Below the pieces are notes generated by a model. That model did no database searches and was not told where the DNA came from. It worked only from the letters and a program-made list of their open reading frames with translations. The translations under genes and the position numbers were made by a program. A DNA stretch of 64,000 bases from Desulfocurvibacter africanus subsp. africanus DSM 2603 (GTDB lineage Bacteria; Desulfobacterota; Desulfovibrionia; Desulfovibrionales; Desulfovibrionaceae): the NCBI RefSeq assembly GCF_000422545.1, contig NZ_AULZ01000005.1, positions 124,001-188,000 on the forward strand, written 5' to 3'. This document shows, one piece after another, positions 34,838 to 58,984 of the stretch; position 1 is the stretch's first letter, and the number at the start of each line of letters is the position of its first letter.

Positions 34838-35743
34838 ATGATGCAATACGACGCGGGCAAGCAGCCCCTGAGTCTGGAAGAGATCACCAAGCGCCTGTGC
34901 GATCCGGCCTCCTACGCCGGAGTCTACCACCGGCCCATGCACGACAAGCCCATGCCCTCGGTGACGGCGCTGGCCGACATCATGGAGCGGCTTCGCGCGC
35001 TGCTCTTTCCGGGCTACTACGGCAACTCCGAGATAACGCCCGAGACCATGGTCTATCACATGGGCGCGGGCCTGGACCACGTTGCCCGGCTGCTCGCCGA
35101 GCAGATCACGCGCGGCCACTGTTTCTCCTGCACCATCACGGACAGGGAAAGCTGCAAGGATTGCGACAAGCAGGCCGAGGAAAAGACCATGCGCTTCCTG
35201 TCGGCCTTGCCGCGCATCCGCGAGCTGCTGGCCTCGGACGCCCAGGCGGCCTACATCGGCGACCCGGCAGCCAGAAGCCCCGGCGAGACCATCTTCTGCT
35301 ACCCGTCCCTCACGGCCCTGACCCACTACCGCATCGCACACGAGCTGCACCACCTGGACGTGCGGCTCATCCCGCGCATCATCACCGAGCTGGCCCACTC
35401 CAAGACCGGCATCGACATCCACCCCGGCGCGGAGATTGGCTCGCACTTCTTCATCGACCACGGCACCGGCGTGGTCATCGGCGAGACGAGCATCATCGGT
35501 CGCAACGTGCGCCTGTACCAGGGCGTGACCCTGGGAGCCAAGAGCTTCCCCAAGGACGACTCCGGCACGCTCATCAAGGGCATCGCCCGCCACCCCATCG
35601 TGGAGGACGACGTCATCATCTACGCCGGCGCGACCATCCTGGGCAGGGTCACAGTTGGCAAGGGCGCGGTCATCGGCGGCAACGTGTGGGTGACCGAAGA
35701 CGTGCCCGCCGGAGCCAGAATCTCGCAGAAGGCCAGCGACTAG
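34838..35743 (+). CDS. cysE: Serine O-acetyltransferase (CysE/EpsC type)
   Basis: 301 residues from the ATG at 34838 (a second ATG follows immediately). The N-terminal alpha-helical part (~1-180) precedes a left-handed beta-helix of hexapeptide repeats (SKTGIDIHPGAEIGSHFFID, GTGVVIGETSIIGRNVRLYQ, GKGAVIGGNVWVTEDVPAG). It makes O-acetylserine for CysK. The internal segment CFSCTITDRESCKDCDKQ, with four Cys, is unusual and might bind metal or act as a redox switch. The TAG stop shares its last two bases with a 128-bp repeat element. Confidence 0.93.
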   Translation: MMQYDAGKQPLSLEEITKRLCDPASYAGVYHRPMHDKPMPSVTALADIMERLRALLFPGYYGNSEITPETMVYHMGAGLDHVARLLAEQITRGHCFSCTITDRESCKDCDKQAEEKTMRFLSALPRIRELLASDAQAAYIGDPAARSPGETIFCYPSLTALTHYRIAHELHHLDVRLIPRIITELAHSKTGIDIHPGAEIGSHFFIDHGTGVVIGETSIIGRNVRLYQGVTLGAKSFPKDDSGTLIKGIARHPIVEDDVIIYAGATILGRVTVGKGAVIGGNVWVTEDVPAGARISQKASD

Positions 35744-35868
35744 AGCAGATTGCTTTTAAGACGCCCGCTCCGGCGTTGACGGCGCAAGTGAATTGCGCCT
35801 ACGCCTACGAGGCGGCAAGCCATGCCGACGCATGGCTTGCAGAGCATTTTCAAAAGCAAAATGCTCTA
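35741..35868 (+). repeat. 128-bp MITE-like multi-hairpin repeat, copy 1
   Basis: Begins TAGAGCAGATTGCTTTT and ends AAAAGCAAAATGCTCTA: 16-17-base imperfect terminal inverted repeats, each bounded by TA. Internal perfect hairpins: GCGCAA-GTGAA-TTGCGC, GCAAGCCATG-CCGACG-CATGGCTTGC and GAGCATTTT-CAAAAGC-AAAATGCTC. The first three bases are the cysE stop codon. Confidence 0.9.
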
Positions 35869-37116: not shown

Positions 37117-38271
37117 CTAAACGGCCGTGAGCAACATATAGCTCATGGAAAAACGTCCGCTCTCGGGGATGAAGCACAAAAGCTTCTGGTCTTTCTCGAT
37201 GCGGCCCGAGCGGAACAGTTCGGCGAGCATGATGAAGATGGAGGCCGAGCCCGTGTTGCCCCTGCTGGACAGGTTGGTGAACCAGCGTTCCTGGGGGATG
37301 TGGAAGCCGAAAGCCTCCATGCGCTCGGCGAGTTGCGGCCGGAAGAACTCCGAGGAGATGTGCGGCAGGAACCAGTCCACTTCCTCGGGCTTGATGCCGC
37401 GCCGCCCGATGACCAGCGGCAGGGTGCGGTCCACGGCCGTGACCACCACCTCGGCATTGAGCATCTTCACATCCTGGCGCACGAGCAGCAGGGACTTGTC
37501 CACGTTCTGGCCGCGATCGACCAGGCTGCGCCAGCCCGTGAGCGAGCCGTCCTCGCGCTTTTCGCCGCCCGCGTACATGCACGTGGGCAGGCTGCCGGCA
37601 AAGGAGACATGCTCGATCCAATCGATGCGCAGGGACAATCCGTCAGGCCTGGGCGCATTGGTCACGAACACTGCCCCCGCGCCGTCCGAGAGCATCCAGC
37701 GCAGGAAGTCGGCCTCGAAAGCCAGGATTGGCGCCTTCTGCAGCTCCTCGCTGCGGTCGCAGGCGGCCGGTTCGCAGAACTCGGCGCGCAGGAAGGTCGA
37801 GGAGAGCTCCGAGCCCGTGGCCACGGCGTTCTCCGAAAGACCCAGGGCCACGTTCATGTACGCGTACTTGAGCGCGCCGATGCCGGCCAGGCAGATGCCC
37901 GCGGGGCTGACCACTTCGCACGGGCCGGTGGCCAACTCGCCGTGGACCATGAGGCCGTGGCCGGGCAGAAGCTGGTCCGGGCTGGATGTGCCGCAGGCCA
38001 GACACTGGATGTCGGCCGGCGAGTAGCCCGAATAGGGTGCGAGCCGCCGCACGGCCTCGGCCGCGAGCTGCGCGTTGCTGTGCGTCTGCGCCCGCGTGAC
38101 CGGGTTCAGGGCGTAATGCCGGCTCTGGATTTTGTTGCTGCGCAGAATGATGCGCCGCACGCGTGAGGCGCTCTCGCCCACCAGGCCCAGGACCTTTTCC
38201 ATGTCTTCGTTGGAGACCGGCTCTCCTGGTAGGAAAGCGCTCACATCGGTGATGTATGCCGCTTGGCTCAT
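37117..38271 (-). CDS. 3-oxoacyl-ACP synthase III-like (KASIII) condensing enzyme
   Basis: 384 residues from the ATG at 38271. The thiolase fold has a complete KASIII triad: Cys in SPAGICLAGIGALKYA, His in WFLPHISSEFF, Asn in LSSRGNTGSASIFI. It is about 60 residues longer than FabH and diverges from it (ACGTSSPDQLLPGHG; an insert with AACDRSEELQK), so it is more likely a secondary-lipid or natural-product condensing enzyme than housekeeping FabH. It lies 16 bases downstream of a B12-binding radical SAM gene on the same strand. Its TAG stop is followed by a fragment (TAGAGCATT) identical to one end of the 128-bp repeat. Confidence 0.87.
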   Translation of the reverse strand: MSQAAYITDVSAFLPGEPVSNEDMEKVLGLVGESASRVRRIILRSNKIQSRHYALNPVTRAQTHSNAQLAAEAVRRLAPYSGYSPADIQCLACGTSSPDQLLPGHGLMVHGELATGPCEVVSPAGICLAGIGALKYAYMNVALGLSENAVATGSELSSTFLRAEFCEPAACDRSEELQKAPILAFEADFLRWMLSDGAGAVFVTNAPRPDGLSLRIDWIEHVSFAGSLPTCMYAGGEKREDGSLTGWRSLVDRGQNVDKSLLLVRQDVKMLNAEVVVTAVDRTLPLVIGRRGIKPEEVDWFLPHISSEFFRPQLAERMEAFGFHIPQERWFTNLSSRGNTGSASIFIMLAELFRSGRIEKDQKLLCFIPESGRFSMSYMLLTAV

Positions 38272-38287: not shown

Positions 38288-39595
38288 TCAGAGTTTGGCG
38301 CCGGCGTGGCCGCTTTTGATGAGGCCGGCGTAGGTTTCGTAGAAAGTTTTCTCGGGCAGGCGCGTGGGCAGCACTGCGTTGGTGAGCGTGTAGTAGTCCA
38401 GATCGTGGATGACGATGCGCTCGCGCAGCTCGTTGTACAGCGGCGTTCCCGGCAGCGGCGTGAGCACCGAGACCATGGGCAAGTCGATGTGCAGGTCCGC
38501 GATGGTCTTGCCCAGGTGCTCGAAATCCGCCTCGGAATAGTCGGGCGAGGCGATGAAGTCGCCCACGATGCGTATGCCCAGGCCATGCAGGATGGACACG
38601 GCTTCCACGTTGTTGCGCCAAGTATTGCGCTTGCCCAGGCGCGCCAGACCCTCGTCGCTCAAGTCCTCGAAGCCGATGATCACGGCCAGCAGCCCGGCCT
38701 TGCGCCACAAGGCCATGAGTTCGGGGTGACGCACAACGGTATCCGAGCGCACGTCGGCTATGATCCGTTTGCCCAGGCCCGCGTCGATGATTGCCTGGGC
38801 CAGCTCGGCGGCGTGTTTCGGGTCGCCGAAGGTATTGGCGTCGATGAGCCGCACCACCGGGATGTCGCCCAAAAGCCGCATGTCGCGCAGCACGGCCGGT
38901 ATGGAGTGGGTCAGGTAACGGCCGCCGGCCTGGGCGCGGATGGCGCAGAAGCCGCACGCGTGGGTGCAGCCGTAGGCCGAGGCCACGAAACCGACCTTGA
39001 GGCCCAGGGAGGAGAGCACGTACTGATCTCGGTAGCCGGCTACCAGGTCGTAGCGCGGCGGCTGCTCTTCCATGAGGTCACGGCTTGAGAACTTCCGGGG
39101 CGTCAGGGCCAGGGGCTTGCCCGGCGAGGTGCGCGCAACGCCCGTGATGCCGGTTCCGTCCTCGGCGCGCTCCAGGGCGTCCACCAGCTCGCGCAGGCTG
39201 GCCTTGCCCAAGCCCTGGATCACGTAATCCACCTCGGGCCGATTGAAGTGCTCCGGATCGAGGCTCGCGTGCATGCCGCCGCAGACGACCGTGGCCTTGG
39301 AGACGCGTTTCACTTCGCGGGCCATGGCGAGCATGACATTAGCCTCGCAAGTCACGCCCGTGATGCCCACGACGTCCGACCGGCTCTCGGCCAGCGCGTC
39401 GGACAGCACGCGCAGAGGCTCGCCGGCCTCGGCCTTGAGGTCCAGGATGCGCGACACATGGCCGTCCAGACCTGCGGCCAGGGCCTCAAGAGCCAGCGGC
39501 TCGCCTCGGAAGATCTGCTTCAGTGAAGTGATACCGTAGCGCTCTTCCGGGATGGAGCGTCCGCTGTTGGGCGGATTGACAAACAGTACATTCAT
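38288..39595 (-). CDS. B12-binding-domain radical SAM protein
   Basis: 435 residues from the ATG at 39595 (a TTG 17 codons upstream is possible). Residues ~1-145 form a cobalamin-binding-like Rossmann domain (VLFVNPPNSG, VVGITGVTCEANVMLA, VVCGGMHASLDPEHF). The radical SAM core has YGCTHACGFCAIRA (the C-x3-C-x2-C of the 4Fe-4S cluster) and continues through LIDANTFGDPKH and GFEDLSDEGLARLG. Class B enzymes of this kind methylate unactivated carbons or rearrange lipids and antibiotics. Paired with a KASIII-like gene, it may modify a polyketide or fatty product; substrate unknown. Divergent from the GGCT gene. Confidence 0.88.
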   Translation of the reverse strand: MNVLFVNPPNSGRSIPEERYGITSLKQIFRGEPLALEALAAGLDGHVSRILDLKAEAGEPLRVLSDALAESRSDVVGITGVTCEANVMLAMAREVKRVSKATVVCGGMHASLDPEHFNRPEVDYVIQGLGKASLRELVDALERAEDGTGITGVARTSPGKPLALTPRKFSSRDLMEEQPPRYDLVAGYRDQYVLSSLGLKVGFVASAYGCTHACGFCAIRAQAGGRYLTHSIPAVLRDMRLLGDIPVVRLIDANTFGDPKHAAELAQAIIDAGLGKRIIADVRSDTVVRHPELMALWRKAGLLAVIIGFEDLSDEGLARLGKRNTWRNNVEAVSILHGLGIRIVGDFIASPDYSEADFEHLGKTIADLHIDLPMVSVLTPLPGTPLYNELRERIVIHDLDYYTLTNAVLPTRLPEKTFYETYAGLIKSGHAGAKL

Positions 39596-42450: not shown

Positions 42451-42467
42451 CAGAAGCATCGTGAACC

Positions 42468-42594
42468 TAGAGCATTTTGCTTTTGAAAATGCTCTGCTAG
42501 CCATGTGTCGGCATGGCTAGCCGCCGCGTAGGCGTAGGCGCAATTTACTTGCGCCGTCAACGCCGGAGCGGGCGTCTTAAAAGCAATCTGCTTA
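42468..42594 (-). repeat. 128-bp MITE-like repeat, copy 2
   Basis: Same element as copy 1, on the minus strand. It ends TAGAGCATTTTGC on the left and GCAATCTGCTTA on the right, one base shorter than the other copies. The internal hairpins carry compensated changes (GCTAGCCATG...CATGGCTAGC). Confidence 0.88.
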
Positions 42595-47158: not shown

Positions 47159-47902
47159 GTGACCGCTGAAGGCGACAAGGACATAGCGGGATTGAAGGCC
47201 ATAGGCCGCATCGTGGACGAAATTCTGAGCCTTTTGTGCGCCGAGGTGCGCGCGGGCGTGACCACGGCCGAGCTCGACGCCAAGGCCGGGCTGTGGCTCG
47301 CGGAGCGGGGAGCGCTGCCCACGCCCAAGCAAGTCTATGATTTTCCGGGCAATCTGTGCATCAGCATCAACGACGAGGTGGTGCACGGCATTCCATCCGA
47401 ACGGGAGATCCGGTCCGGCGATCTGGTCAAGCTGGACCTGACCGCGGACAAGGACAGCTATGTGGCCGACGCCACGCGCATGGCCTCCGTTGGGCCCATG
47501 GACAAGCACGTGCTGAAGCTGGCCCGATGCGCCGAGGCGGCCTTGGGCAAAGGGTTGGAGCAAGCCCGCGCCGGCAAGCGCTTGCGCGACATCGGCCGGG
47601 CCGTGGAGGCCGAAGTGCGCCGCCAGGGCTTCGCGATCATACCGCCGCTTCAGGGCCATGGCGTGGGACGCACCGTGCACGAATTGCCCAACGTGCCCAA
47701 CTACGACGACCCAGCCGCGACCCAGGAACTGCACGAAGGCCTGATCATCACCCTTGAGCCCATCATCAGCATGGGCAAGCCGGATATTCGTCAGCTCTCC
47801 GACGGCTGGACCCTCAAGACGCGCGACGGCTCGTATTCGGCGCACTACGAACAGACGATCATGGTCACCAAGGGCGCACCCCTGGTGCTTACGGCTCAGT
47901 AG
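47159..47902 (+). CDS. map: Type I methionine aminopeptidase
   Basis: 247 residues from a GTG with GAGGAG ahead. The metal ligands can be placed: Asp pair in KLDLTADKDSYVADATR, His in HGVGRTVHELPNVPNY, Glu in LIITLEPIISMG and Glu in SAHYEQTIMV. It removes the initiator Met from new proteins. Its position inside the nucleoside transporter gene set is odd. The stop TAG (47900-47902) shares its last two bases with MITE copy 3, which separates it from the second permease gene. Confidence 0.95.
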   Translation: MTAEGDKDIAGLKAIGRIVDEILSLLCAEVRAGVTTAELDAKAGLWLAERGALPTPKQVYDFPGNLCISINDEVVHGIPSEREIRSGDLVKLDLTADKDSYVADATRMASVGPMDKHVLKLARCAEAALGKGLEQARAGKRLRDIGRAVEAEVRRQGFAIIPPLQGHGVGRTVHELPNVPNYDDPAATQELHEGLIITLEPIISMGKPDIRQLSDGWTLKTRDGSYSAHYEQTIMVTKGAPLVLTAQ

Positions 47903-48027
47903 AGCAGATTGCTTTTAAGATGCCCGCTCCGGCGTTGACGGCGCAAGTGAATTGCGCCTACGCCGAAGCTAGCGGCAAGCCATGCCGACGCATAGCTTGC
48001 AGAGCATTTTCAAAAGCAAATGCTCTA
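47900..48027 (+). repeat. 128-bp MITE-like repeat, copy 3
   Basis: TAGAGCAGATTGCTTTT at the left and GCAAATGCTCTA at the right, bounded by TA on both sides. The first three bases form the stop codon of map. Confidence 0.9.
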
Positions 48028-48127
48028 GCCTTGGCAAGGCTCACCGGTCTGCCCGCGGCCGCACACCCCAGCGCCACGCGGCCCCACGACCGCGAAAATG
48101 AAATGTTTTTGAGGAAAGGATGGGGGT

Positions 48128-50843: not shown

Positions 50844-50971
50844 TAGAGCATTTTGCTTTTGAAAATGCTCTGCAAGCCATGCGTTAGCATGGCTTGCAGC
50901 CGCGTAGGCGTAGGCGCAATTCACTTGCGCCGTCAACGCCGGAGCGGTCGTCTTAAAAGCAATCTGCTCTA
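50844..50971 (-). repeat. 128-bp MITE-like repeat, copy 4
   Basis: Minus-strand copy: left end TAGAGCATTTTGCTTTT, right end AAAAGCAATCTGCTCTA, both within a CTAG-like context, so the TA boundaries are visible on both sides. Confidence 0.9.
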
Positions 50972-50986
50972 GGTTTCGCGGATGAA

Positions 50987-51229: not shown

Positions 51230-51493
51230 TTACTGCCGACTGCGGATGAAGTCCGCAAGCACGCGCAGGCTGGCCAGCACTCGGCGGGCCACGTTCTGGT
51301 CGTCGATGCGCACGCCGTAGTGCGCCTGCACGGCCACCACGATTTCCACGGCATCCAGGCTGTCCAGGCCCAGCGGCGAGTCCGGGCCGATGAGCGGGGC
51401 CTCGGGCAGCACTTCCTCTGGCACGTCTTGCACATTGCAGGCCTTGACGATGATCGACTGGAGCTCGTGCTCCAGGGCATGGGCAGCATTCAT
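51230..51493 (-). CDS. Acyl carrier protein (specialised)
   Basis: 87 residues from the ATG at 51493, with GAGGA ahead. Four-helix carrier with the phosphopantetheine site at the Ser of SPLGLDSLDAVEIVVAVQAH, and VRIDDQNVARRVLASLRVLA after it. The broken D-S-L/E pattern and alkaline helix III distinguish it from housekeeping AcpP. It is the last gene of a five-gene minus-strand set with a two-part ABC exporter and a BtrH-like protein, so it probably carries an acyl group handed to a product made by that cassette. Confidence 0.9.
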   Translation of the reverse strand: MNAAHALEHELQSIIVKACNVQDVPEEVLPEAPLIGPDSPLGLDSLDAVEIVVAVQAHYGVRIDDQNVARRVLASLRVLADFIRSRQ

Positions 51494-51523
51494 GACGTTG
51501 GTCCTCACCGGCGCGGCCGGGTT

Positions 51524-52813
51524 TCAGGCGCGCTCCCGCGACAGGGCCAGCCAGGCCGCCGTGGCCGTGGCCAGGAAGAAGCCCAGCAGCAGGAGCATGT
51601 GCGAACTTACGGAGACAAGGGAGCCTCCGCGTACAAAAATCTCCAGGAAGCCGTCAAGGCCCCAGGCCAGGGGCGAGGCGCGGCTGACGGCGCGCATGGT
51701 GTCGGACATGACGTAGACCGGAACCATGACTCCGCCCAGGGCCGCCGCGATGACCACCGAGACCGCGCCGAACAGCGCACCCTGATCGCGGGTGCGCGCC
51801 AGCGCACCCACGAGGATGCCGAAGCCCGAAGCGGCCAGGGCCGCGCACAAGGCCAATGCCGCTGCCGCGATCGGGCTGCCGGCCAGGGTCAGCCGGTCCA
51901 CGCCCAGGAGCGGGAGCACGGCCGCGCCCATGGCCAGCATGAGCGCGAACTGGAGCAGGCAGACCAGGGCGAAGGCGAGCACCTTGCCGGCCAGGATGGC
52001 CGCCAGCGGGGCGGGCGAGACCATGAGCCGCAGCATGGTGCGGCTCTGGCGCTCGCGGATGAGCGCGCCCGAGAGCGGCACCACGATGAAGAACATGCCG
52101 AACAGGGACCAGGCCGGGACGTTCTGCTGCGTGGAGGTTGGCAGTCTGGTCAGGCCGCTCATGCCGGCCGGTTCCTGCTCCAGAGCCAGCAGCCGGTGCG
52201 GCGTATCGGCCTGGGGTGGTTCTGACCCTGCGGGCTGGTTGAGCAGCCGGTTGACGATCTGGCGGTAAGCCTCGCTCAGGGCAGTAAGCTCCACGGCCAT
52301 GAGCGCCTGCTCCATGGCGCTGCGCACCGCCTGGTGCAGGGCGCCCTGCACCGCAGGATCATAGAGCAGCACCAGCCCCGGCTGCCCGCCATCGGGCCTG
52401 TTCTTGCCAGCCAGGTCGGCCCTGGCGGCCTCGCCAGCCCGTTTCGTGATGTTCTCGCTGATGCCTTGGGGCACGACAACGGCGAACTGGTAGCGGCCCT
52501 GAGCCACGGACTGGCGGGCGGATTCGCGGTCCAATGGGCGACCGTCCAACTCGCGCAGCAGGCTCACCGAACCATGGTCTCCGAGGCCCTGTTCCAGGGA
52601 GCGGCCAAGCCGTCCGCCGTCCTCGTCGACAAATAGCAGCTCAAGCCGTCCCTGACCCCAGCCCAGGCCGCCCGTGGTGCGCAGGATGTTGTCCTGCACC
52701 AGGGAGACCACCAGCACCAGGGCCGCGGGCATGAGGAAGAGCACGGCCAGGCCGGCCTTATCGCGGGAAAGTTCGCGCAGTTCCTTGAAGAATGTGGCGA
52801 CCAGGGCGCGCAT
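51524..52813 (-). CDS. ABC-2-type exporter permease
   Basis: 429 residues. N-terminal helix (GLAVLFLMPAALVLVVSLVQ), a large extracytoplasmic domain (~40-225), then five helices with PLSGALIRERQSRTMLRLMV (ABC-2 loop) and SPLAWGLDGFLEIFVRGG. This layout is that of YhaP/NatB/DrrB-like exporters with one large loop. Three bases separate it from the ATPase gene; ACP follows 30 bases on. It likely exports the lipidic product of the cassette. Confidence 0.9.
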   Translation of the reverse strand: MRALVATFFKELRELSRDKAGLAVLFLMPAALVLVVSLVQDNILRTTGGLGWGQGRLELLFVDEDGGRLGRSLEQGLGDHGSVSLLRELDGRPLDRESARQSVAQGRYQFAVVVPQGISENITKRAGEAARADLAGKNRPDGGQPGLVLLYDPAVQGALHQAVRSAMEQALMAVELTALSEAYRQIVNRLLNQPAGSEPPQADTPHRLLALEQEPAGMSGLTRLPTSTQQNVPAWSLFGMFFIVVPLSGALIRERQSRTMLRLMVSPAPLAAILAGKVLAFALVCLLQFALMLAMGAAVLPLLGVDRLTLAGSPIAAAALALCAALAASGFGILVGALARTRDQGALFGAVSVVIAAALGGVMVPVYVMSDTMRAVSRASPLAWGLDGFLEIFVRGGSLVSVSSHMLLLLGFFLATATAAWLALSRERA

Positions 52814-52816
52814 GGC

Positions 52817-53608
52817 CTACCCGTCGCGCAGGGCGCGGCCCGTGAGGGCCAGATACAGTTCGCCCAGGTCCGCGCAGCCGTGCTCCGACAGCAGCGCGCC
52901 GGGTGCGCCCTGAGCCACGGCCACGCCGTGGTCCATGATGATGACCCGGTCGCAGAGGCGTTGGGCCTCTTCCATGACATGGGTGGTGTAGAGCATGGTC
53001 ACGCCGTCGGCCTTGAGCGCCAGGAGCCGCTCCATGATGAGGTTGCGCGACTGGGTGTCTACGCCCGCCGTGGGCTCGTCCAGGAAGACGAAGCGCGGGC
53101 CGTGCACTAGGCCGGCGGAGAGGTTGAGACGGCGCTGCATGCCGCCAGAGAAGGTCCCCGCGCGGCGCTGGGCGTGATCGGCGAGATTCGTGAAGCTCAG
53201 GGCCTCGTCCACCCTGCGGGCCAGCTCGCGGCCGCCCAGGCCTTGCAGGCTGGCGAAGTAGGTCAGGTTCTCGCGGGCGGTTAGGCTCGGGTACAGAGCG
53301 ATGTCCTGGGGCACGGTGCCCAAAAGCGGCCGCACCAGGCCGGGCCGGGCCAGGGCGTCGCAGCCGAAGATGCGCAGCCGGCCCTGGCGGGGCGAAAGGA
53401 GCGTGCTCATGATGGACACGGCCGTGGTCTTGCCCGCGCCGTTCGGCCCCAGCAGGCCCACGATCTCGCCCCGGCCCGCGCGCACGTCCAGTCCGCGCAA
53501 TGTGGGAGCCGCGCCGTGGCCGTAGTCGTGGACCAGGCCCGTGGCTTCCAGGGGCACGGCATCCAGATCGATATTCGCCTGGCGGGAGGAACGGTCGTCA
53601 AGGAGCAT
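52817..53608 (-). CDS. ABC-2 exporter ATPase
   Basis: 263 residues. Walker A GLLGPNGAGKTTAVSIM, Q-loop VPQDIALYPSLTARENL, signature FSGGMQRRLNLSAGLV, Walker B FVFLDEPTAGVD and switch His in YTTHVMEEAQ. Typical CcmA/NatA-type exporter ATPase. ATG at 53608, 10 bases after the BtrH-like gene. Works with the permease encoded next. Confidence 0.95.
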   Translation of the reverse strand: MLLDDRSSRQANIDLDAVPLEATGLVHDYGHGAAPTLRGLDVRAGRGEIVGLLGPNGAGKTTAVSIMSTLLSPRQGRLRIFGCDALARPGLVRPLLGTVPQDIALYPSLTARENLTYFASLQGLGGRELARRVDEALSFTNLADHAQRRAGTFSGGMQRRLNLSAGLVHGPRFVFLDEPTAGVDTQSRNLIMERLLALKADGVTMLYTTHVMEEAQRLCDRVIIMDHGVAVAQGAPGALLSEHGCADLGELYLALTGRALRDG

Positions 53609-53618
53609 GCGGTCTTAC

Positions 53619-54638
53619 CTAGCGCGCCTTGGCCTGCAGTTGCGGGGCCATTGCTCGAATCTCGCGGAAAAGTCGATCCTCGCGGCCGGCAAGGCCTTCC
53701 AGCAGGTCCGCGGCAGCGACGTAGCTCTCGCCCTGGCCTGCCCTGCCCTTGCACAGCCGCGCGCCCATGAGCGCCAGATCGCGCCAGGCGTCGCCGGCAG
53801 CCGTGAAGCTGGCGGACAGCTCGGTCAGGCGAGGTTCGGCCAACAGACCGGCGGTTTCCTGCAGAAAGGCCGCGAAGATGAAGCGGAAACCCGCGCCGCC
53901 CGTGCCGATCTCCTCCTGCATGCGGATGAGCTGGGCCATGTGGCGGGCTGCCCCGCGCTGGCCGTACCACTCGGGCCAACAGCGCATGCGCCGGGCCAGA
54001 AAGCGCATGCCCCGCGTGCCGATAAGCGGCACGGGCAGGAAGGTCATGCGCCGGGCGACCTCGACCAGGCCCTGCACGGCCGGTCCGCGCAGATCTACGT
54101 TGGCCGGGGCCGAACGCACCCAGTACATGCGGCCCTTGGGCGCCAGGGGGCCCTTGGCGAAGCGTGCGCGGACCAGATCCTGGGCGGAGATGGACATGGC
54201 TACGTCCAGGTTGGGGTCGCTGACCAGGTATTCGCCGTCCTGTTTGCCGTAGACCACGAGATTGTGCGCGTTGAAGTGGTGGCGCAGGGCGGGCGGGAAG
54301 TAGGGCAGCCAATAGACGCCGGCCTGCAGGCCCACGGGGATGCCCTGCCCCAGGACTTCGTCCAGGGCGGCCATGCCCTTGTCCTCGCTGCGGAAGCGGC
54401 GCTGGGACATGCGCACGCCCAGGCGCTTGGTCACGCGGCTGAAGATGCCGCCCACGAAGTTGCGGAAGGTGGTCAGGGGCAGCCCGGCGACCTTGACCAT
54501 GGGAAAATGGCCGAAGAAAAGTCCTGCGCCGATGCCAAAGGCCATGGCCTCGCTCAGCGGCATGCCATGATGGGCCAGCAGGTTGGCCGTGGCGCCGCTC
54601 TCGCAATGGGCGCTGTGGCGATGGGCGAAATCAATCAC
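53619..54638 (-). CDS. BtrH-like acyltransferase (BtrH N-terminal domain, DUF4872-like)
   Basis: 339 residues from a GTG at 54638 that overlaps the previous stop by four bases. The N-terminal domain has HRHSAHCESGATANLLAHHG, the Cys-centred motif of the BtrH_N family with a cysteine-protease-like fold, and HHFNAHNLVVYGKQDGEYLV with the matching His. In butirosin synthesis BtrH moves an acyl group from a carrier protein to an amine, so here it probably transfers an acyl chain from the ACP of this cassette. The C-terminal ~180 residues fit DUF4872. The acceptor is unknown. Confidence 0.85.
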   Translation of the reverse strand: MIDFAHRHSAHCESGATANLLAHHGMPLSEAMAFGIGAGLFFGHFPMVKVAGLPLTTFRNFVGGIFSRVTKRLGVRMSQRRFRSEDKGMAALDEVLGQGIPVGLQAGVYWLPYFPPALRHHFNAHNLVVYGKQDGEYLVSDPNLDVAMSISAQDLVRARFAKGPLAPKGRMYWVRSAPANVDLRGPAVQGLVEVARRMTFLPVPLIGTRGMRFLARRMRCWPEWYGQRGAARHMAQLIRMQEEIGTGGAGFRFIFAAFLQETAGLLAEPRLTELSASFTAAGDAWRDLALMGARLCKGRAGQGESYVAAADLLEGLAGREDRLFREIRAMAPQLQAKAR

Positions 54639-55066
54639 GCGCGATCCTTCTCTCCCGGCAGGGGCGCAACGCGCTCGGGCACGCGGCACAACTCCTCGGG
54701 ACTCAAGCCCAGGGCCTGGGCGTATTTGATGAGGATTCGTTGGGGCAGCTTGGCGAAAACCTTGGGCTTGAGGTGGCGGCGCACCCGCCAGCGGGCCAGG
54801 CCCGCGTAGCCGGCAAGGATGGAGTCGTCCATGAGCCGCACGACCATGTGGAAGGCCAAGGGGCTCAACTCGCCTTTGCGCACGCGCTCCAGGGCCGACT
54901 CGGCCCGCTCGCGAATATCGGCCCAGGCCTCGGCGTTGGCCGTGTCCACGACGTCCCAGCCGGCGCTGGGCACCAGCTCGTAACTACCGTCGTCGGCTAC
55001 CGCGTAGCGGACCTGATGCCAGGGGCCAAGGGTCCCGGCATCCTGGGGCACATCCTTTTTGCGCAT
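54635..55066 (-). CDS. Conserved-looking protein with C-terminal HTH-like segment
   Basis: 143 residues. First gene of the ACP/BtrH-like/ABC unit; its stop overlaps the BtrH-like start. The C-terminal half (SPLAFHMVVRLMDDSILAGY, RWRVRRHLKPKVFAKL, ILIKYAQALGLSPEELCRV) has the helix spacing of an XRE-like DNA-binding domain but a degenerate turn. It could be the local regulator or an assembly partner; no family recognised. Confidence 0.65.
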   Translation of the reverse strand: MRKKDVPQDAGTLGPWHQVRYAVADDGSYELVPSAGWDVVDTANAEAWADIRERAESALERVRKGELSPLAFHMVVRLMDDSILAGYAGLARWRVRRHLKPKVFAKLPQRILIKYAQALGLSPEELCRVPERVAPLPGEKDRA

Positions 55067-55588: not shown

Positions 55589-56995
55589 CTAGCCGGCCGG
55601 CCTGATGTTCTGGTTGACCCGGAACAGGTTGCCCGGATCATACTTCTTCTTTATCTCGGCCAATCTGGGGTAATTGCCCCGATAGGTGCGCTCCACGCGC
55701 TGCTGCCCTTCGTCCATCAGGAAGTTCACGTAGCCGGCTCCCAGCGAATAGGGCTGGAACGCCTGCCAGTACGACCTGACCCAGTCGGTGATCAGCTCCT
55801 TGTTGGCCGGGTCGGGATCGACTCCAACGATAACCATGGACCAGCTGGCCTCGCGGTAGCTGAAGGCCGTGTCGGCCTCGGCCACGCGGTTGGCCGCGCC
55901 GCTGATGGGATAGAGGTGCATCTGCGATCCCGTCGTGGGGATTTTCGCTGCGTACTCCAGGTGCACGTCGATGGCCTCGTCCGACAGCTCTCCGACGAAC
56001 TCGCCCCTCCAGTACCACTGCAAGCCCGGCGGGATGAGCGGATCGAACATGGACTGAAGCGCCGGGAAGGGCATGGGCCCGATATGCTCGAACAGCGGCG
56101 GGGCGAACGAGCGGATGGGCGCGAAGATATCCTCGGCCTTGTCCATGTCGCCGCTGTAGCACCAGACCACCGCGTAGACCGGGCGCCTGTGCAGCTCCTG
56201 CGGGAAAAGCGGTATGGGCGGCACGGGCAAGAAAGCCGGGTAGCCGTACAGATCCTCGGACGCTTCGGTGATAAACCGTCGATGCCAGCGCAGGACCTCG
56301 CGCGCCTGATCCAGGCCCCAGAAGCTGAGCCCGGCATAGACCGTATGCACGGGATGCGCCTTGAACAGGAATGACGTGACCACGCCGAAATTCCCTCCGC
56401 CTCCGCGGATGGCCCAGAAGAGATCGGGGTTCTCCCGCTCGTTGGCCGTGACGAACCTTCCATCGGCCAGAACCAGATCAGCCTCCAGAAGATTGTCGAT
56501 GGTCAGCCCGTACTTGCGGGTCAGATAGCCGTGTCCGCCGCCCAGGGTCAGGCCCGAGATGCCCGTGGTCGAGATGACCCCGGCGGGCACGGCCAAGCCG
56601 AAGGCGTGCGTGGCGTGGTCCACATCGCGTTGGATGCAGCCCGCCTCAACTCGCGCCGTACCGGCGATGGGATCGACCCGGATGCCCTTCATGGGTGAGA
56701 GATCGACGACCAGGCCGTTGTCGCATGTGCCGAGGCCGGCCCCGTTGTGCCCGCCGCCCCGGATGGCTAGGAGCAGTCCGTTGTCGCGGGCGAAGTTCAC
56801 GCAGGCCATGACGTCGGCCACGTCCGCGCAGCGGGCGACCATGCGTGGCCGTTTGTCGATCATGCCGTTATAGACCTTGCGGGCAGTTTCGTATTGCGGG
56901 TCGCCGGGCTCGATGAGTTGGCCGCGCAGACTTTTCCTGAACACATCCACGGCGCTTGGAGCGATCTCGACCTCGGGTTGCTCGGGAATCTTCAT
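55589..56995 (-). CDS. FAD-binding (BBE-like) oxidoreductase
   Basis: 468 residues. PCMH-type FAD domain with the covalent-His region AIRGGGHNGAGLGTCDNGLV and GLTLGGGHGYLTRKYGL, plus a C-terminal BBE segment (RNYPRLAEIKKKYDPGNLFR-like). The second covalent ligand Cys of bicovalent members is absent: that position reads GVISTTGISG, so the flavin is likely held by His only. Such enzymes oxidise alcohols, sugars or secondary metabolites with O2 or another acceptor, odd for a strict anaerobe. ATG at 56995. Confidence 0.9.
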   Translation of the reverse strand: MKIPEQPEVEIAPSAVDVFRKSLRGQLIEPGDPQYETARKVYNGMIDKRPRMVARCADVADVMACVNFARDNGLLLAIRGGGHNGAGLGTCDNGLVVDLSPMKGIRVDPIAGTARVEAGCIQRDVDHATHAFGLAVPAGVISTTGISGLTLGGGHGYLTRKYGLTIDNLLEADLVLADGRFVTANERENPDLFWAIRGGGGNFGVVTSFLFKAHPVHTVYAGLSFWGLDQAREVLRWHRRFITEASEDLYGYPAFLPVPPIPLFPQELHRRPVYAVVWCYSGDMDKAEDIFAPIRSFAPPLFEHIGPMPFPALQSMFDPLIPPGLQWYWRGEFVGELSDEAIDVHLEYAAKIPTTGSQMHLYPISGAANRVAEADTAFSYREASWSMVIVGVDPDPANKELITDWVRSYWQAFQPYSLGAGYVNFLMDEGQQRVERTYRGNYPRLAEIKKKYDPGNLFRVNQNIRPAG

Positions 56996-57072
56996 GGTCT
57001 TCCTCTCCGCGTAAGGTTGAGGCCTCCGGCGGTTCGCCGGCCTTAATAGCGGCAGACCCCAGTATCCTGGCT

Positions 57073-57264
57073 ATGAAATTTCGCCTGGTTTGGCAATTCG
57101 AGGCTGGCGGGAGAAGAATCATGGGCGCGTATTCACAGGAGGCTTATTCACACGCGCCAGGAAGCCGAGGCGTTCATGAAGAAATAGTTATGAATATCAT
57201 TTACATAGACAGCCAAACAAAAAGGGCCGGGAGAGCTTCTCTCCCGGCCCTTGCCATATCTTAG
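57073..57264 (+). pseudogene. Decayed relative of the small protein gene at 55313
   Basis: The stretch CAC.GGAGGC...CACGCGCCAGAAAG.CGAGGCGTTCAT of the 55313 gene reappears at 57131-57180 with few changes, but one base is lost in TTATTCACACGC, so the shared peptide (TGGVF.TRQ.EAF) only reads with a frameshift and ends early. The open frame here (from ATG 57073) is therefore probably a remnant. Confidence 0.45.
57221..57254 (-). terminator. Intrinsic terminator of the acyl-CoA synthetase gene
   Basis: AAGGGCCGGGAGAG-AAG-CTCTCCCGGCCCTTTTTG on the minus strand, downstream of the 3' repeat at 57276-57331. Confidence 0.85.
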
Positions 57265-57275
57265 AATACGCGGGT

Positions 57276-57331
57276 CCAGGGCGTCGTTACGCCTGGTGGG
57301 TGGGGTCTGGGGAGGACAACGCCCTTCCCAG
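57276..57331 (-). repeat. 3' double stem-loop repeat (after acyl-CoA synthetase)
   Basis: On the minus strand: CTGGGAAGGGC-GTTGTCCTCCCCAG, a linker, then CCAGGCG-TAACGAC-GCCCTGG. It starts four bases after the stop and lies before the terminator. Confidence 0.85.
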
Positions 57332-57334
57332 TGC

Positions 57335-58984
57335 TTAGCCTTTCTTCTCGTCCCGCTCCCGGATCTCGGCGCGCTTGATCTTGCCCGAGATTGTCTTGGG
57401 CAATTCATCAACGTACTCAATGACGCGCGGGTACTTGTAGGGCGCGGTGACCTTCTTGACGTGCTCCTGGATTTCGTGGGTCAGCTCGTCGCTCGGGTCG
57501 TAGCCCTTGGCCAGCACGACGGTGGCCTTGACGGCCTGGCCGCGCACGGGGTCGGGCACGCCGGTCACGGCCGCCTCCACCACCCCCGGGTGGGTGATGA
57601 GCGCGCTTTCCACCTCGAAGGGTCCGATGCGGTAGCCCGAGGACTTGATGAGGTCGTCGGTGCGGCCCAGGAACCAGAAGTAGCCGTCCTCGTCCATCCA
57701 GGCCTTGTCGCCGGTGTGATAGAAGCCGTCATAAATCACGGCGGCGGTCTTGGCCGGCTCGTCCAGGTAGCCGGTAAACAGGCCCACGGGCCGTTTGGGC
57801 TCCACGGCGATGCAGATCTCGCCCTCTTCGCCCGGGGCGCAGGGCGAGCCATCCTCCTTGAGCAGGCGGAGGTCCCAGCCGGGCGCGGGCCGGCCGATGG
57901 AGCCGGGTTTGGGCGTCATGCAGGGCAGCGTGAGAAGTTGCAGGGTCGTCTCGGTCTGGCCGTAGCCCTCGTAGATGGGCAGGCCGGTCATGCGCTTCCA
58001 CTCGTGGAACACGCCGTCATTGAGCAGCTCGCCGGCCGTGGTGCAGTGGCGCAGGGCCGACAGGTCGAACTGCGACAGGTCCAGGCGGATGAGGAAGCGG
58101 TAGACCGTGGGCGGCGCGCAGAAGCTGGTGACCTTGTGCTCGGCCATGAGCCGCAGCAGGTGCTCGGGCTCGAACTTGCCGCGAAAATCCCAGGTGAAGA
58201 CCGTAGCACCGGCCATCCACTGCCCGTAGAACTTGCCCCAGACCGCCTTGCCCCAGCCCGTGTCGGCCAGGGTCAGGTGCAGGTCGCTCGGTCCCAGGTC
58301 GTGCCAGTAAACGCCCGTGACGTAGTGGCCCAGGGCATAAGCGTGGGTGTGCTCGGCCATCTTGGGCATGCCCGTGGTGCCCGAGGTGAAGAAAATCAGC
58401 AGCGGGTCGTCACCGCCCGGCTTGTCCTTGCCCTTAGGCGCGGGATAGCTGTCCCCGGCTTTTTGCAGGATGGCGTTGTAGCCCACCCAGCCGGCCGGGA
58501 GCTTGTCGCCGGCTACCTGAACCAGGATTTGCAGTGTCGGGCACTTGGGCCTGGCCTGCTCAACGCGCTCGGTGAGCGTGTACTCGCAGACCACGGCGCG
58601 CACCTTGGCGTAGTTGATGCGCTGCTCGATATCCTTGGCCGTGAGCAGGTTCGGCGAGGGAATGGGCACCGCGCCGATCTTGTGCAGGGCCAGCATGGTC
58701 ACCCAGAACTCCACACGGCGATAGAGGATGACCATGACCCGGTCGCCGCGCTTGAGGCCCTGGGCGACCAGGGCGTTGGCCAGCTTGGCCGACTCGCGGC
58801 TGAAAAAAGCCAGGTCGTAATCGCGGCGTTTGCCCTCGGGGTCGATGTGCACCATGGCTGGCCGCGTGGGGTCCTTGGCCGCCTCGGCGTCCAGGAAGTC
58901 GAAGGCGAAATTGTAGCCTTCGGGCACCTCCAGGGAGAACTTGTCCTTGAAATCCTCGTATGACACGGGCGAAAGCTTATGCAT
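57335..58984 (-). CDS. Acyl-CoA synthetase (AMP-forming, medium-chain ACSM-like)
   Basis: 549 residues. AMP-binding motif PLLIFFTSGTTGMPKMAEHT (A3), LPIYEGYGQTETTLQ (A5), YHTGDKAWMDEDGY (A7), RTDDLIKSSGYRIGPFEVES (A8), PKTISGKIKRAEIR with the catalytic Lys (A10). It activates carboxylic acids to acyl-CoA in two steps. Similarity pattern fits ACSM/benzoate-type ligases. ATG at 58984 with GAGGAGAA ahead. It follows the XRE-cupin regulator on the same strand after a 160-base gap; the pair is commonly linked in anaerobes. Confidence 0.94.
   Translation of the reverse strand: MHKLSPVSYEDFKDKFSLEVPEGYNFAFDFLDAEAAKDPTRPAMVHIDPEGKRRDYDLAFFSRESAKLANALVAQGLKRGDRVMVILYRRVEFWVTMLALHKIGAVPIPSPNLLTAKDIEQRINYAKVRAVVCEYTLTERVEQARPKCPTLQILVQVAGDKLPAGWVGYNAILQKAGDSYPAPKGKDKPGGDDPLLIFFTSGTTGMPKMAEHTHAYALGHYVTGVYWHDLGPSDLHLTLADTGWGKAVWGKFYGQWMAGATVFTWDFRGKFEPEHLLRLMAEHKVTSFCAPPTVYRFLIRLDLSQFDLSALRHCTTAGELLNDGVFHEWKRMTGLPIYEGYGQTETTLQLLTLPCMTPKPGSIGRPAPGWDLRLLKEDGSPCAPGEEGEICIAVEPKRPVGLFTGYLDEPAKTAAVIYDGFYHTGDKAWMDEDGYFWFLGRTDDLIKSSGYRIGPFEVESALITHPGVVEAAVTGVPDPVRGQAVKATVVLAKGYDPSDELTHEIQEHVKKVTAPYKYPRVIEYVDELPKTISGKIKRAEIRERDEKKG

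Follow-up and report, generated by a model that had tools for sequence, protein, structure and literature searches.

The 64,000-nucleotide stretch of the Desulfocurvibacter africanus subsp. africanus DSM 2603 genome analyzed here (the window; positions 124,001 to 188,000 of contig NZ_AULZ01000005.1) contains a cassette of five close-set genes on the minus strand at 51230-55066, where the first-pass annotation, made from the letters alone, had already placed five tightly packed genes. The cassette encodes an acyl carrier protein (ACP), the permease and ATPase of an ATP-binding cassette (ABC) exporter, the BtrH-related acyltransferase DarH, and a small DarG-family protein; the gaps from the ACP gene through the permease and ATPase genes to darH are 15, 3, and 10 bp, and the GC content at third codon positions is 0.85-0.90 in all five genes. 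It is a variant of the dar/flexirubin kind and very probably belongs to the dialkylresorcinol/flexirubin pathway type; the novel part is a radical S-adenosylmethionine (SAM) enzyme gene beside darB. This darB-radical SAM gene pair, which goes unmentioned in the first-pass annotation of the cassette, lies about 12 kb from the cassette in the same window. Scoring of the proteins against Pfam and NCBIfam models with curated cut-offs supports the following features, given with their counterparts in the Azoarcus dar locus:

51230-51508, minus strand: ACP of the dar cassette, 92 residues, counterpart of Azoarcus darC (PP-binding, 29.3 bits, cut-off 20.8)
51524-52813, minus strand: ABC-2 type exporter permease, counterpart of Azoarcus darI (ABC2_membrane_3, E 2.5e-33)
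52817-53608, minus strand: ABC exporter ATPase, counterpart of Azoarcus darF (ABC_tran, E 1.6e-26)
53619-54638, minus strand: DarH, BtrH-related acyltransferase with BtrH_N and DUF4872 domains, counterpart of Azoarcus darE (NCBIfam NF053550, 447 bits, cut-off 300)
54635-55066, minus strand: DarG-family protein, counterpart of Azoarcus darD (NCBIfam NF053536 DarG_fam, 151.8 bits, cut-off 70)
37117-38271, minus strand: DarB/StlD-type ketosynthase (StlD/DarB NF005293, 563 bits, cut-off 450)
38288-39595, minus strand: B12-binding-domain radical SAM enzyme, 435 residues (B12-binding and Radical_SAM, over Pfam cut-offs)

The Pfam matches confirm the identities first assigned to the ATPase, permease, and ACP. 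The predicted phosphopantetheine site of the ACP is Ser50 within a DSL motif; the protein scores 57.8 bits against PRK09184, under the cut-off of 70, the top NCBIfam model of the exporter ATPase is DrrA, also under its cut-off, and DarG reaches 130.4 bits against the narrower flexirubin DarG model NF053545, under the cut-off of 170. The domains of the BtrH_N/DUF4872 protein had been recognized correctly, and its open reading frame as listed (53619-54689, 356 residues) does overlap darG by 55 bp; however, the conserved start is probably the GTG at 54638, which leaves an overlap of 4 bp. Two other parts of the first-pass annotation do not hold. The system was called undescribed, but NCBIfam already names DarG and DarH, and the gene order matches that of the Azoarcus dar locus apart from the PHD and PilT genes; it was also thought to operate without the usual polyketide synthase modules, but DarB is encoded in the same window and a set of type II ketosynthases on another contig of the genome, C27.

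According to the cited sections of the report on Azoarcus sp. BH72 (PMC3949708), its dar locus comprises darA, darB, a gene listed as unknown, a BtrH-like gene, and genes for an ATPase, PHD, PilT, permease, ACP, and ketosynthase. Together with two unlinked polyene loci it yields arcuflavin, a polyene joined to a dialkylresorcinol through a bond that the authors predict from mass spectrometry to be an ester, and DarA is listed there as the dialkylresorcinol aromatase (PMC3949708). The two genomes share the order of the unknown, BtrH-like, ATPase, permease, and ACP genes and the location of polyene genes in separate loci; in Azoarcus, however, darA and darB adjoin these genes and the PHD/PilT pair lies between ATPase and permease, whereas the source genome has a radical SAM gene before darB, lacks a PHD/PilT pair, and carries darB about 13 kb from the cassette. 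In Pseudomonas chlororaphis, mutation of darA abolishes the production of 2-hexyl-5-propyl resorcinol (PMC6403133). The flexirubin clusters of Chitinophaga pinensis and Flavobacterium johnsoniae resemble the genes of the source genome in having DarB, polyene ketosynthases, LolA, and exporter, glycosyltransferase, and acyltransferase genes; unlike it, they contain DarA and are presented without mention of radical SAM genes in the cited part of PMC3992019, whereas the source genome has radical SAM genes on C27 as well.

A comparison of gene neighborhoods, the check proposed in the first-pass annotation, reveals that the cassette is conserved as a set. Gene darG is directly upstream of darH in 61 of 64 DarH loci from public genomes, and all five genes, with either of two ACP types counted, share a strand and fit within 7.5 kb in 29 of the 45 DarH loci that extend at least 4 kb downstream; thus, the grouping is not a product of chance. 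The ABC pair was not seen in 14 of the 45 scanned loci, including three from Bacteroidota and five from Campylobacterota, the latter having DarG-DarH after DarA-DarB. A sample of 395 genomes of the phylum contains DarH over the cut-off in 34 genomes, DarB in 33, and both in 30, so that DarB accompanies DarH in 30 of 34 genomes and DarH accompanies DarB in 30 of 33; for many genomes of this sample, scoring was limited to the best 4-5 candidates of a first look. DarH was found in none of 14 control genomes, and among 199 genomes sampled from its own family the source genome alone has it. Many of the sampled genomes are metagenome-assembled, and the genome sets used throughout overlap, so their counts are not additive. 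Several copies of DarH occur in genomes of one family, f31 (three in G456, two each in G534 and G568), and locus L060 (6924-11400) has DarH copies in tandem with DarG.

Two types of gene alternate beside DarB. Among the 64 DarH loci, 36 contain darB, and the gene directly upstream encodes a radical SAM enzyme in 24 (23 assigned by script, plus locus L028 with overlapping open frames) and DarA in 11, with one locus cut by a contig edge and none containing both. The same division extends to whole genomes. Full-length DarA (at least 417 bits) was detected in all 11 DarA-type genomes, in none of the 24 radical SAM-type genomes, and not in the source genome; the contig-edge genome, the last of the 37 searched, has a 68-residue piece of DarA. 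Conversely, the radical SAM profile (E <=1e-60) matched in 11 of 11 radical SAM-type genomes searched (10 of the 24 plus the source genome) and in 0 of 12 others (the 11 DarA-type genomes and the contig-edge one). The DarA profile was built from 10 of the 11 DarA loci, hand-chosen for spread (L055 left out), and it has no match in the source genome at E 1e-3 or E 1e-30; a DarA overlooked elsewhere in this genome is ruled out by these whole-genome searches.

The phylum sample gave the same picture: 19 of the 33 DarB genomes have the radical SAM enzyme (638-783 bits), 13 have DarA (at least about 329 bits), and none has both. In the remaining genome (G279) a stop interrupts DarB, and a fragment of DarA lies at the end of a contig. 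Both the radical SAM subfamily (19 genomes) and DarA (13) occur in this sample only in DarB genomes, and the probability of no overlap between them is 2.4e-8 if kinship is ignored. We retrieved loci for 30 of these 33 genomes. In 28 other DarH genomes, DarB was present in 19, accompanied by the radical SAM enzyme in 12 and by DarA in seven (one of these a contig-terminal piece of 70 residues); in one further genome a contig boundary truncates the radical SAM gene and DarB was not observed, and eight lack DarB, full-length DarA, and the radical SAM enzyme. Loci from this second set were retrieved for the DarB-bearing genomes only. Among 49 DarB loci, the partner is the radical SAM enzyme in 30 cases and DarA in 19 (two only pieces), never both; the 49 include the locus of the window and at least four duplicates of places counted under a different label or in the first set of loci. 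Two Bacteroidetes loci have darA immediately after darB; in the others the partner gene precedes darB on the same strand, separated from it by 7-409 bp.

The distribution of partners does not follow the phylogeny of DarB throughout. On a tree of the 36 DarB proteins the partner label requires two changes, both forced by well-supported branches; two radical SAM-type Desulfosarcina loci are nested in a DarA-type group, and both partner types occur in a single genus (G577 and G595, DarB proteins 55% identical). DarA and the radical SAM enzyme have thus been exchanged at least twice, which descent alone does not account for. They are also the strongest separators of the two types among the gene families of 35 loci (24 radical SAM-type and 11 DarA-type); some families common to Campylobacterota loci separate the types as well, and the ABC genes occur more often in radical SAM-type loci. 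The gene-family script places one DarA-type locus in the radical SAM family, likely through single-linkage merging with a paralogue.

The radical SAM gene of the window occupies the position of darA in other loci, directly upstream of darB on the same strand with a gap of 16 bp. The CxxxCxxC motif of its product starts at residue 210, and the motif cysteines are invariant in 21 sequences; the subfamily profile combines the window protein with those from 20 of 25 loci, hand-chosen for spread. Members of the subfamily score at least 588 bits on this profile and the next radical SAM group at most 323. That second group of B12-binding radical SAM proteins (229-323 bits) is found in 30 genomes of the phylum, 29 without DarB and one with it (G447).

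The predicted model of the enzyme (mean predicted local distance difference test score 84, predicted template modeling score 0.85) is closest to the structure of AprD4 (Z 31.4, root-mean-square deviation (rmsd) 3.1, 394 residues), followed by MgmA (Z 29.4, rmsd 3.1, 361 residues) and TsrM (Z 29.0, rmsd 3.3, 402 residues). AprD4 is named a dehydratase, MgmA a methylase, and TsrM a methyltransferase; thus, the fold does not choose between oxidation and methylation. With known B12-binding radical SAM enzymes (the AprD4, TsrM, MgmA, and OxsB structures; the BchE and HpnR families) the window enzyme shares the fold, both domains, and the CxxxCxxC motif, but it falls far under the cut-offs of the hopanoid C-methylase HpnR, its best NCBIfam model (154 bits, cut-off 650), and of BchE (113 bits, cut-off 481), and its subfamily is tied to DarB.

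We found no report in the open-access literature, a search outside which most subscription papers lie, of a radical SAM enzyme together with DarB and resorcinol or with flexirubin. In the portions covered of open-access papers retrieved with dialkylresorcinol and radical SAM, radical SAM enzymes are named only in another context. Flexirubin and BtrH together led only to the Azoarcus paper (PMC3949708), and a term search of the celluxanthene paper found no mention of DarB, resorcinol, BtrH, or radical SAM.

An alignment of DarH from the window and 25 of the 64 loci, hand-chosen for spread, has Cys29, His142, and Asp158 (numbering of the 356-residue frame) unchanged in 26 of 26 sequences. Such a Cys-His-Asp set is expected of a papain-like acyltransferase, and from these sequence features we consider it fairly likely that DarH forms the ester by transferring the polyene acyl group to the resorcinol. 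A PDB sequence search with DarH gave weak matches. The BtrH_N domain is common to DarH and BtrH of butirosin biosynthesis; the two differ in their partner genes and probable acceptors, and DarH has an NCBIfam equivalog of its own. The first-pass annotation had proposed an acylated product that is made and exported. This part of it is likely because ACP, BtrH-type acyltransferase, and ABC-2 exporter are conserved together; the acceptor, assumed there to be an amine, would more likely be a resorcinol oxygen.

For DarG, the HTH-like (helix-turn-helix) character noticed at first is supported by the predicted model, which has an N-terminal beta hairpin and, in the C-terminal half at residues ~61-133, a region similar to Xre/Cro helix-turn-helix domains. 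The best Xre/Cro rows for this half give Z ~10 and rmsd 1.8-2.6 A over 62-65 residues, although such Z values can be common among helical folds, and Foldseek alone returned one match at E <=0.001. The same fold was matched within the enzymes HEPD and HppE; therefore, it does not imply DNA binding. DarG, aligned from 36 of 61 loci hand-chosen for spread plus the window, would be a small partner of DarH with this fold, regulatory or structural in role.

The polyene part of the pathway is probably encoded on C27, a 39.9-kb contig of the same genome that contains an aryl-polyene gene set. It encodes four PF02801 ketosynthases, a ketoreductase, ACPs, a match below cut-off to an ApeP-like dehydratase, an adenosine monophosphate (AMP)-binding ligase, and a thioesterase. 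The contig also has several radical SAM genes and genes for LolA, a CrtI-like flavoprotein, a family 2 glycosyltransferase (GT2), an MMPL exporter, and a lipid A-type acyltransferase. In several loci of the Geobacter and Desulfuromonas types, relatives of the C27 genes immediately precede DarG-DarH; thus, the polyene set is split off in the source genome and clustered elsewhere. The C27 radical SAM/SPASM gene (L074, 16827-17906) has relatives in 10 of 24 radical SAM-type loci and 0 of 11 DarA-type loci. The ring step may involve two enzymes, with this protein as the second.

Given the alternation beside DarB, the simplest reading is that the radical SAM enzyme does the job of DarA. We consider it probable that the source genome encodes a flexirubin/arcuflavin-type pathway, split between loci, in which the radical SAM enzyme stands in DarA's place, a judgment on the whole that does not extend to all of its steps jointly. 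The sequences show which parts are present, that their order is conserved, and that DarA and the radical SAM gene alternate beside DarB; all chemical and transport steps are inferred. DarB would join two fatty-acid-derived thioesters into a 2,5-dialkylcyclohexane-1,3-dione, and the radical SAM enzyme would oxidize this ring to a dialkylresorcinol, the role of DarA elsewhere. The type II ketosynthase system of C27 would make an aryl-polyene acid on an ACP, from which DarH would move the polyene acyl group onto the resorcinol. The ABC-2 pair is predicted to take the product or an intermediate over the inner membrane, and the LolA- and MMPL-like proteins of C27 to bring the product to the outer membrane. 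For the radical SAM protein as the aromatizing enzyme of the pathway we see about an even chance; the evolutionary form of this proposal, that DarA was repeatedly replaced by a radical SAM enzyme of the B12 type, which oxidizes the DarB cyclohexanedione to an aromatic dialkylresorcinol, is just as evenly balanced.

Several observations weigh against this pathway assignment. The window DarB reaches 454 bits against the narrower model resorcinol_DarB (NF053539), below its cut-off of 550, which only 1 of the 33 DarB proteins of the phylum passes. The C27 gene set is on a contig separate from the cassette, and four DarH genomes (G300, G361, G534, and G568), all of family f31, lack DarB. The proteins called DarA here have no useful NCBIfam match, weak flavodoxin matches only in Pfam, and weak matches in a PDB sequence search; they are named from their position, with support from two Bacteroidetes genomes in which they are encoded beside a DarB over the curated cut-off. 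A plasmid search with DarA matched three Streptomyces plasmids; in the one examined, DarA follows a DarB-like ketosynthase, which supports the name as well. The DarB search also matches Caulobacter vibrioides and Bacteroides ihuae, 2 of the 14 control genomes, and neither DarA nor a radical SAM gene is annotated adjacent to the DarB/StlD ketosynthase of a Prevotella plasmid or among the neighbors of DarB on a Pseudoalteromonas plasmid. DarB-like enzymes outside the phylum can therefore lack both partners, and the alternation rule is supported within this phylum and among genomes with DarH, rather than for all DarB enzymes. Some DarA-type loci bear the names of sulphate-reducer lineages (record names only); thus, the exchange would not simply follow oxygen. 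Finally, shorter, distant DarA-like flavoproteins (open frames of 215-300 residues that score 47-81 bits and whose alignments span the initial half to two-thirds of the DarA sequence) are encoded elsewhere in 13 of the 24 radical SAM-type genomes, and also in 2 of 28 further genomes, without DarB (G629 and G636). No other gene in six fetched stretches of 6-10 kb around such flavoproteins (L081-L086) matched the dar or polyene queries. As the missing aromatase they cannot cover all cases, since 11 of the 24 radical SAM-type genomes and the source genome have no DarA-like flavoprotein at E 1e-3.

These flavoproteins would fit a different role of the radical SAM enzyme, that of a methyltransferase or other tailoring enzyme acting on the DarB product, with the ring remaining a cyclohexanedione or being aromatized by another enzyme and the pigment differing from flexirubin. 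We regard this as a serious possibility that falls somewhat short of even. Its best NCBIfam model being a C-methylase, the enzyme may methylate, which counts against an aromatase, and its structural neighbors TsrM, TokK, and MgmA are named methyltransferases or methylase; however, alternation with DarA in the same place and at least two exchanges suit replacement better than added tailoring, the genomes devoid of any DarA-like flavoprotein do not fit, and the top structure, AprD4, is named a dehydratase, though it leads MgmA and TsrM by only about 2 Z units. As to the ester, it seems rather unlikely that a FlxW-like ligase or the C27 lipid A-type acyltransferase forms it in the same pathway while DarH performs another step, such as acyl shuttling between ACPs for DarB. 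Against DarH as the ester-forming enzyme stand the ligase FlxW, proposed for the flexirubin ester step of Chitinophaga in the cited part of PMC3992019, and the five Campylobacterota loci with DarG-DarH and no ABC pair; in its favor are the invariant Cys-His-Asp set and the name acyltransferase given to DarH by NCBIfam. Very improbable is the interpretation proposed at the outset, a self-contained, undescribed system that places an acyl group on an amine and exports the product without polyketide synthase enzymes. BtrH does acylate an amine, the five genes are compact and conserved, and there are the four DarH genomes devoid of DarB; a DarB-free DarH system may exist in family f31. Yet DarG and DarH are curated as dar/flexirubin proteins, most DarH genomes of the phylum have DarB, and we rejected a stand-alone amine-acylating system for the source genome, which contains DarB in the window and the polyene ketosynthase set on C27.

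If the radical SAM enzyme does replace DarA, it would be an aromatase driven by SAM and independent of oxygen, and a second class of flexirubin-like pigment pathways would be recognized in deltaproteobacterial lineages. Many sequenced bacteria would then make polyene-resorcinol pigments by a ring chemistry that we have not found described, and B12-type radical SAM enzymes would gain carbocycle aromatization as a further reaction. As a neighbor of darB, the radical SAM gene could mark clusters that a DarA-based search misses, and the proposed pathway offers a concrete role for DarH.

Upstream of the cassette on the same strand, at 55589-58984 of the window, are genes for a flavin adenine dinucleotide (FAD)-binding berberine-bridge-type oxidase and an AMP-forming acyl-coenzyme A synthetase. 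A dispersed repeat of ~130 bp, its copies more than 90% identical, occurs in the window at 35740-35868, 42467-42592, 47900-48028, and 50844-50972, and in several copies on each of contigs C26 and C27.

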